A stretch of DNA of 64,000 bases. It comes from Clostridiales bacterium. Lineage in GTDB: Bacteria > Bacillota > Clostridia > Saccharofermentanales > Saccharofermentanaceae. The notes under the pieces were generated by a model. That model searched no databases, was not told where the DNA came from, and worked only from the letters and a program-made list of their open reading frames with translations. Location: positions 1 through 64,000 of the forward strand of contig JAGAAI010000044.1 of the NCBI GenBank assembly GCA_017615325.1, in the 5' to 3' direction. This document shows positions 30,836 through 32,806 of this stretch, piece after piece. Numbering within the stretch: the first letter of the stretch is position 1; each line of letters starts with the position of its first letter. The position numbers and the translations under genes are program-made.

Positions 30836-32806
30836 TTAGTTTTCTCCGCCCTGATCTCCGCCGTTGTCACCGCCGTTATCAGTATCAGCGGGCTTCTCGG
30901 AAGATGCAGGCTTTTCGGCCTGAGTATCCTTAGGCTTATCTGTGGCTTTACTGGTAGGTTCCTCGCTCGGCTTGTCGCTGGGCTTCTCAGAAGATGAAGA
31001 TGAAGGCTCTTCACTGCTCTTTGAAGTCTTGTCGGAAGGCTCCGGAGTAGTTGTGTCAGAAGGCTCAGCTGTAGTCGTTGTTGTGGATGTTGTGTCAGAT
31101 GAAGTAGTTGTAGTGGTCGTTGTCGTTGTAGTATCAGATGTTGTAGTTGTTGTCGTTGTTGTATCTGATGTTGTTGTCGTAGCCTGAGAAGTAGCCTTGG
31201 ACGTCGTTGTAGTCTCCTCAGTAGTGGATTCCGTGGTCTCTTCTGTAGGTGTAGGCGTAGGATCGTTCTCCATCTCTGAAGTCTCGTCGTAGTATGTGGG
31301 ATCTTCATCGGAGAGCTGGGCTGTTAGCACATAACCCGTAATGTTATTGGCGGTAAGAACGATCGAGAACTTGTCCTCGACTCCTACCAGTGTGACCGTA
31401 TCACCGCGGTCTAACTTCTCGATGATGGTGCTGTCAAGAGCAGCCTGTGAATATACCGGGGTCTGGTCTGACGTAATGTAAAGGACCTGGTTACCCGTCT
31501 CAGTTGTAGTAGCCTGTGTAGTGTTGGAATCCAACAGATCCCTTACATGGAAAACAAGGAATGTGATACCGAATCCCAGGAGAATACATACGATGAGGAT
31601 AAGGACAGGAATAAGGATCGACAGTGCCTTCTGCTTACTGGTAACTGCATTGAGTTCTTCAGCATCGATCATCTGCTCCTCGATACCTTCTTCGTAATCC
31701 GCACCGCCGGGTACGAATTTCCTTGTTCCGTCATCTTCTGCTACGTTAAGGTCATTCTTCTTTCTGGACTTCTTAACAGGATAATCTGCTTCTTCTGCTT
31801 CCCTTACAGCCTTTGAAGAAGGTTTGGATACGGGCTTGGTATCGTCATTGACTTCGGATTGCGCCCTGTTCCTTGCTCTTGCGGGCTGGCTCTGTTCAGG
31901 CTTGGAGAAATCGATGAATTCATTTGAAGGATCCTGATCCTTGATGGGAGCTACAGTAGCATCACTTGCAAGGCTTGAGTGGATCACCGCATCGCCGGGC
32001 AGGATAAATGTGGATTCGACCTGCATACCGATAAGGGTAAGTCCGGACTTAATGCCGTAATTGATCGCGGAATTCATGATCTCCTTGACCTTATCTTCGA
32101 TCGGTATCCTCTTGATGACTGCGCTGTTACGGAGCTGGGAAGGCATCTTGCGGGATACGCCTAGGCCCATAAGGAAGAGCTCGTCTCCGTCCTTGAGCTT
32201 GATATTAACGTTCTTATCAGGAATAAGCTGTCCGTCCTGAGGCATCTTGCCCAGATACTGGGTGAGGTTCATGTTCTCGGGATGCGTCTTCTCATCTTCA
32301 GCCGTGATAGCGCCCATCTTAAGATATCTGTGAGCTACCGTTGCTTCCTCGGTAAGTGCAAGGATCTGATTTTCGCGAAGGAGCACGGCCTTGGTGATAC
32401 CGAGATGGATCACCCTCAGGATATCGCCTTCGATAACGAGCATTGTCATGGAAGTCTTAAGTGCAACACCCTTATTGGCGGAGAAATTGCAGACAAAGAC
32501 ATTCAATGTGTTAACTACTCTATTGGAGAAGGCTTCGAAGTCGAGGATCGTCTGGTTAGAAAAATCAGCTACTATCTTCTCCAATTCCTTATTTAATTCG
32601 ATATTAAGGATAGCACCAAGATTATCGGGACCGATCGTCGAGAAGATCGCACAGATCTGGATCGGAGAAGTGGATCTTGCCGTGCGGAGGAATTCATTGG
32701 GGAAATCCTCGATCTTACGTGACAAAGTGAGGAAGAATACATTCTCCTGAGGCTGATCCTTTATAAGGTTAGTCTCACATATACACGTTGATACCGTTTT
32801 GCTCAT
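30836..32806 (-). CDS. Membrane protein: degenerate PP2C domain + TM + SH3-like domain + Thr-rich tail
   Basis: 656 residues. Residues ~1-270 align by eye to PPM/PP2C phosphatases: IEGDILRVIHLGITKAVLLREN in place of VGDSRAYL, LTEEATVAHRYLKMGAIT in place of LTxDHS..GEIT, and TQYLG in place of TRALG. The metal-binding aspartates are gone: DGMGGH reads STIGPDN and SDGL reads MGLGV. It is thus likely catalytically dead. One TM segment (near 388-416) leads to an outside SH3-like domain (~436-500, QTPVYSQAALDSTIIEKL) and a long Thr/Ser/Pro tail (~510-656) fit for wall crossing. The start overlaps the LCP stop (ATGA). It may bind phosphoproteins or a Ser/Thr kinase inside and sense the wall outside. 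Confidence 0.75.
   Translation of the reverse strand: MSKTVSTCICETNLIKDQPQENVFFLTLSRKIEDFPNEFLRTARSTSPIQICAIFSTIGPDNLGAILNIELNKELEKIVADFSNQTILDFEAFSNRVVNTLNVFVCNFSANKGVALKTSMTMLVIEGDILRVIHLGITKAVLLRENQILALTEEATVAHRYLKMGAITAEDEKTHPENMNLTQYLGKMPQDGQLIPDKNVNIKLKDGDELFLMGLGVSRKMPSQLRNSAVIKRIPIEDKVKEIMNSAINYGIKSGLTLIGMQVESTFILPGDAVIHSSLASDATVAPIKDQDPSNEFIDFSKPEQSQPARARNRAQSEVNDDTKPVSKPSSKAVREAEEADYPVKKSRKKNDLNVAEDDGTRKFVPGGADYEEGIEEQMIDAEELNAVTSKQKALSILIPVLILIVCILLGFGITFLVFHVRDLLDSNTTQATTTETGNQVLYITSDQTPVYSQAALDSTIIEKLDRGDTVTLVGVEDKFSIVLTANNITGYVLTAQLSDEDPTYYDETSEMENDPTPTPTEETTESTTEETTTTSKATSQATTTTSDTTTTTTTTSDTTTTTTTTTTSSDTTSTTTTTAEPSDTTTPEPSDKTSKSSEEPSSSSSEKPSDKPSEEPTSKATDKPKDTQAEKPASSEKPADTDNGGDNGGDQGGEN

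Follow-up and report, generated by a model that had tools for sequence, protein, structure and literature searches.

A Predicted Transmembrane PPM Pseudophosphatase Encoded with an LCP-family Ligase in Saccharofermentans

The 64,000-nucleotide stretch of clostridial DNA analyzed here (the window) encodes a protein in which the N-terminal domain has the PPM/PP2C fold with every metal-ligand aspartate replaced, the loss being fixed across orthologues and the domain remaining under purifying selection, as in a pseudophosphatase. Judging from its sequence the domain is almost certainly catalytically inactive, and it is followed by one predicted transmembrane helix and a predicted outer SH3b domain, the architecture of a wall receptor. 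PPM pseudophosphatases are already known (TAB1, PHLPP2, and RssB); the receptor-like form appears to be undescribed. We tentatively favor a role as a membrane adaptor in the PASTA kinase/cell wall pathway. The initial annotation had pictured a receptor that binds a phosphoprotein or kinase inside and wall material outside, a plausible reading, and its wall-facing half is supported because active clostridial relatives carry LysM or Big_2 outer domains.

RESULTS

Gene Locus and Domain Organization

The features of the locus are collected in Table 1. The start codon of the pseudophosphatase gene is located inside the stop codon of the LCP gene (ATGA, 32806-32803), and an AAGGAG ribosome-binding site can be read upstream, in agreement with the translational coupling to the ligase that had been proposed. 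Close downstream of the pseudophosphatase gene (window positions 29235-30815) are genes for a DUF1858 protein, a small protein that resembles TetR on inspection (without a Pfam match), and a cyclophilin; only the two closest relatives (L039 and L040) were seen to share this order. A secreted protein that combines LRR, Big_2, and three SLH domains is encoded at positions 27214-29121 and is probably a surface protein of the S-layer type.

Table 1. Location of the pseudophosphatase, its domains, and neighboring genes in the window
Feature	Position	Strand	Basis
Transmembrane PPM pseudophosphatase, whole gene, 656 aa	30836..32806	-	ORF; most genomes of the genus encode an orthologue
PPM/PP2C fold, metal-ligand Asps all replaced (E21, S56, I137, L215, S254), residues 1-275	31982..32806	-	Sequence and fold matches
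Disordered linker, predicted cytoplasmic, residues 269-396	31619..32002	-	pLDDT under 50 for 269-387
Single transmembrane helix, residues 389-425	31532..31642	-	Hydropathy and model
Extracellular SH3b (SH3_3-like) domain, predicted, residues 440-500	31307..31489	-	Model and SH3_3 match
Thr/Ser/Pro-rich low-complexity tail, residues 501-656	30839..31306	-	Composition, 33% Thr
LCP-family (LytR-CpsA-Psr) wall glycopolymer ligase	32803..33939	-	Pfam LytR_cpsA_psr E=3.5e-35; ATGA-coupled to pseudophosphatase
DUF3048 lipoprotein gene, divergent from LCP	34123..35328	+	Recurs beside the LCP-pseudophosphatase pair across the family

Fold of the PPM Domain

Residues 1-275 match the NCBIfam Stp1/IreP model (NF033484) with E=4.7e-12, the score of 45.9 bits falling short of the Stp1 equivalog cut-off of 230 bits, and a sequence match in the PDB is made to Stp1 (2pk0, E=6e-8). 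A Pfam search with the 656-amino acid protein gives no PP2C match, which means that the PPM kinship is easily overlooked by Pfam alone. The AlphaFold2 model of the domain, calculated from 38 window and GTDB sequences, has a pLDDT of 84 and a pTM of 0.82, and Foldseek aligns it with the Stp1 and PstP structures (2pk0/1txo) at E~1e-13 and a probability of 1.0. The matches are significant across the whole domain and establish the PPM fold that had been recognized by eye in the N-terminal region; a chance likeness to PPM proteins is ruled out by the 2pk0 and Foldseek values.

Loss of the Metal Site

Catalysis by PPM phosphatases depends on two or three metal ions that are coordinated by aspartate side chains (PMC12002173), and the window PPM domain therefore cannot be an ordinary phosphatase, the ligands D38, D60, D239, and D282 (PPM1A numbering) being absent from it. 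The DGMGG motif reads STIGP (Asp to S56), GDSR reads GITK (Asp to I137), and SDGL reads GLGV (Asp to L215), the sites lying where the initial annotation had placed them, and two further changes are present in KDN, which reads KSG (Asp to S254), and NED, which reads PQE (Asp to E21). None of the 71 Saccharofermentans sequences keeps a metal-ligand Asp, with D38 replaced by Glu, D60 by Ser, D146 by Ile, Asn, or Val, D239 mostly by Leu, Val, or Ile, and D282 mostly by Ser, Ala, Tyr, or Phe; no close homologue in this set has the aspartates intact. All but one of these sequences (70/71) come from GTDB genomes labelled Saccharofermentans, Mageeibacillus, Ruminococcaceae, or Clostridiales, the sources being mostly rumen and other herbivore gut samples. 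The four sister genera of the family contributed 17 sequences, of which none has an intact metal site and one (L123) keeps a single Asp at the position of D239. Misalignment of the aspartates is ruled out, as independent phmmer and MAFFT alignments concur at the GDSR, SDG, and KDN sites.

Conservation of the Former Active Site

The median dN/dS of the domain is 0.033 over 189 pairs, indicating strong purifying selection and, together with the intact reading frames, ruling out a decaying pseudogene. With a dN/dS of about 0.03 and the sites missing from 71/71 homologues in the genus, the loss of the aspartates is not a matter of chance. The six loops of the former active site have an entropy of 0.985 bits in the family alignment (87 sequences) versus 1.444 elsewhere in the domain, a difference for which only 0.8% of circular shifts (fraction 0.008) give an equally low value, and these loops contain nine of the 19 family-invariant residues (hypergeometric p=6e-4), both p-values being optimistic as the sequences are phylogenetically related. 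The invariant loop residues include Q20, E21, N22, S56, D61, G136, G214, and G216, and the residues newly fixed in the former active site are QEN, S56, S119, and G255. As the loops are better conserved than the rest of the domain and have acquired new fixed residues, the pocket appears to have been rebuilt and not to have decayed, and in these alignments the pattern is the opposite of relaxed drift in a dead pocket.

Linker and Outer Region

The transmembrane segment, SH3-like domain, and Thr-rich stretch that had been noted in the sequence are all recovered (Table 1). The Pfam SH3_3 match of the outer domain (E=4.6e-5) is below the family cut-off, and a longer model contains a confident SH3b fold at residues 440-500; binding of this domain to the wall is a guess made at the level of the domain family. 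The linkers of the orthologues are hardly alignable apart from a short motif, [DENGSQ]Txx[FYL], which surrounds T361 (31724-31726) and occurs in 65/68 linkers compared with a mean of 10 in shuffles. Across 38 aligned sequences, no residue past the PPM domain is invariant except T361. The motif is reminiscent of the ETTSVF phosphosite of GarA/OdhI, and from the sequence Thr361 is likely a kinase site, with phosphorylation of the linker predicted at this residue. Docking of the T361 motif onto the protein's own PPM domain was considered and is unsupported by the structure model.

Linkage to LCP Genes

Upstream sequence could be read at 67 loci of the genus, and the upstream neighbor of the pseudophosphatase gene is an LCP gene in 45 of them, glutamate dehydrogenase in 14, and DUF3048 in 8. 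In genomes that have lost the adjacent LCP gene no close LCP orthologue was found elsewhere, and in three genomes (G112, G123, which is 98% complete, and G142) the pseudophosphatase persists although the LCP family is not detectable at all. The constant linkage to LCP genes that the initial annotation had anticipated is thus contradicted, and an obligate LCP partnership is ruled out. Because linkage is inconstant and the pseudophosphatase outlives the LCP gene in three genomes, the LCP ligase is an ancestral neighbor of the protein, which is not a dedicated LCP subunit. The want of a detectable LCP-family gene in these three genomes, at 84-98% completeness, is unusual for Gram-positive-type bacteria. 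In some LCP-less genomes the DUF3048 gene lies directly upstream of the pseudophosphatase.

Ancestry and Related Membrane PPMs

In the sibling family f4 of the same order, a membrane PP2C gene immediately follows an LCP gene, and its product has the whole metal site intact (loci L032, L033, L034, L037, and L038). The LCP-PPM operon therefore probably predates the loss of catalysis, as the same pair occurs there with the metal site preserved. A partly eroded site is present in f3 g28, also with LCP upstream, where NED reads HFD, GDS reads GNS, and SDG reads SNS or CNG, with DGMG and DN retained. In a tree calculated with the active-site columns removed, the window's family forms one clade (100/100) and f4 another, and f3 g28 is placed as sister to the window's family with weak support (78-80). 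The SH3b domain is found only in the window's family. Active-type membrane PP2Cs elsewhere in Clostridia have an outer LysM (L130) or Big_2 domain (L131 and L132) and an intact metal site, and this hints that receptor-type PPMs are a wider class.

A second case is seen in the order of genome G518, where 25/31 genomes encode a membrane PPM with Thr/Pro-repeat tails and no LCP gene occurs in the flanks read. These proteins (L133-L135 and L152-L164) have tails of Thr/Pro/Glu repeats and metal sites eroded to varying degrees, from L133 and L153, in which NEDN and the DG of DGMGG survive, up to nearly complete loss in others examined. Complete loss is later in this order, since some of its members keep D60. 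The G518-order PPMs form their own clade (100/100), yet the AU test does not reject their union with the window's family in a single clade (p=0.145), so that two origins of the dead clades are not claimed.

Signaling Context

At another locus of this genome a PASTA kinase gene lies next to one for an active-type PrpC, and PASTA proteins are present in 16/16 genomes checked. The one FHA protein found in the genome (L137 2084-3385) is encoded beside Tad/T2SS pilus-like genes and was set aside as a partner; a recruitment of the MviN-FhaA type is therefore left with no obvious reader.

DISCUSSION

The window protein is related in fold and sequence to the Stp1/PstP/PrpC phosphatases (NCBIfam NF033484), from which it differs in the replaced metal aspartates and in the added transmembrane and SH3b outer region; a canonical PrpC exists separately in its genome. 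The active clostridial membrane PP2Cs (L130, L131, L132, and f4) share the PPM domain, the transmembrane segment, and an outer domain or LCP neighbor, and differ in having an intact metal site and no SH3b domain. Use of a dead PP2C domain as an adaptor has a precedent in E. coli RssB (PMC7226468 and PMC10957080), the C-terminal domain of which is likewise a bacterial PPM fold without active-site residues that serves in protein binding, and a claim to the first bacterial PPM pseudophosphatase was dropped accordingly. Unlike the window protein, RssB is a cytosolic response regulator working with ClpXP, it has no transmembrane or outer domain, and it keeps one of the three aspartates (PMC7226468), whereas the window protein keeps none. 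TAB1 and PHLPP2 also contain inactive PPM domains, in which one metal ion is retained at the M2 site (PMC12002173), and TAB1 binds a kinase; both are eukaryotic and stand outside any LCP or wall context. The best parallel for the way in which it would work is RssB taken together with MviN of Mycobacterium tuberculosis, a pseudokinase in the membrane that recruits FhaA through a tail phosphorylated by PknB and in this way controls wall synthesis (PMC12599244). Like the window protein, MviN has a dead signaling-enzyme domain in a membrane protein, in its case one of wall synthesis, and its tail is phosphorylated by a PASTA kinase, but it has a kinase fold, a flippase membrane part, and a known FHA partner, whereas phosphorylation of the window protein is only predicted.

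In the adaptor role that we favor, an active membrane-anchored PP2C encoded with an LCP wall ligase would have been the ancestor, all metal ligands would have been lost in the ancestor of the family, and the extracellular SH3b and Thr-rich region would have been gained. The dead PPM domain would most likely be a protein-binding module, with the rebuilt metal-free pocket docking a partner from the PASTA kinase pathway, either a phosphoprotein, the kinase, or the active PrpC. Phosphorylation of Thr361 by the kinase would switch or recruit, the outer SH3b domain and Thr-rich tail would sit in or read the wall, and wall assembly would thereby be tied to Ser/Thr phosphosignaling, as with the pseudokinase MviN in mycobacteria. 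Counting against this role are the missing LCP linkage at about a third of the loci and the position of the single FHA protein beside pilus-like genes.

It is unlikely that the dead PPM domain is a mere structural or oligomerization stalk, an LCP-side scaffold kept for anchoring alone in which the pocket binds nothing. The ancestral operon with LCP would fit such a stalk, as would the second membrane PPM clade, which also erodes the site yet keeps its transmembrane segment and stalk, but the former active-site loops would not then be expected to be the better conserved part of the domain with new invariant residues, nor the protein to persist without LCP in three genomes. Specific control of the adjacent LCP ligase by direct membrane contact, suggested by the translational coupling and by linkage in 45/67 genus loci, in all sister genera, in f4, and in f3 g28, is quite unlikely given that the pseudophosphatase persists at loci and in whole genomes that have lost the orthologous LCP gene, including those in which no member of the LCP family can be detected. 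We also regard as rather improbable a sensor in which the rebuilt pocket binds a small cytoplasmic ligand (a metabolite or nucleotide) independently of Ser/Thr phosphorylation: the pocket is conserved, yet not for PPM chemistry, but no known PPM example was found and the invariant linker Thr would be left unexplained. An enzyme with an unrecognized metal-free or single-metal mechanism, for which the invariant E21 in place of D38 and the strong selection on the pocket could be cited, is very improbable, since active PPMs all need two or three metals, the one-ion TAB1 and PHLPP2 are inactive (PMC12002173), and the window protein has the ligands of no metal site.

The adaptor role may, more doubtfully, extend to a class. 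Clostridia could contain undescribed receptor-type PPMs that span the membrane and were originally active phosphatases, with either an LCP partner or an outer domain that binds the wall. In at least one family (and probably independently in a second order), catalysis would have been exchanged for a rebuilt pocket lacking metal, through which phosphoproteins or the PASTA kinase would be read in pseudophosphatase-based wall-integrity signaling.

Bacterial pseudokinases in wall control are known, and the only bacterial dead PPM in the literature found is the cytosolic adaptor RssB; a description of the window protein was not found in open-licence PMC papers on bacterial pseudophosphatases with PP2C, PPM, or LCP. 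Within a single bacterial order, and with the operon retained, the passage from an active to a dead enzyme can be traced, so that the role of the phosphatase fold in the absence of catalysis becomes open to test. The finding also points to an unrecognized wall-signaling component in abundant rumen bacteria. Some of the bearers are apparently cultured, as the records include isolates YAD3003, AB4001, YRB3002, and KHP2.
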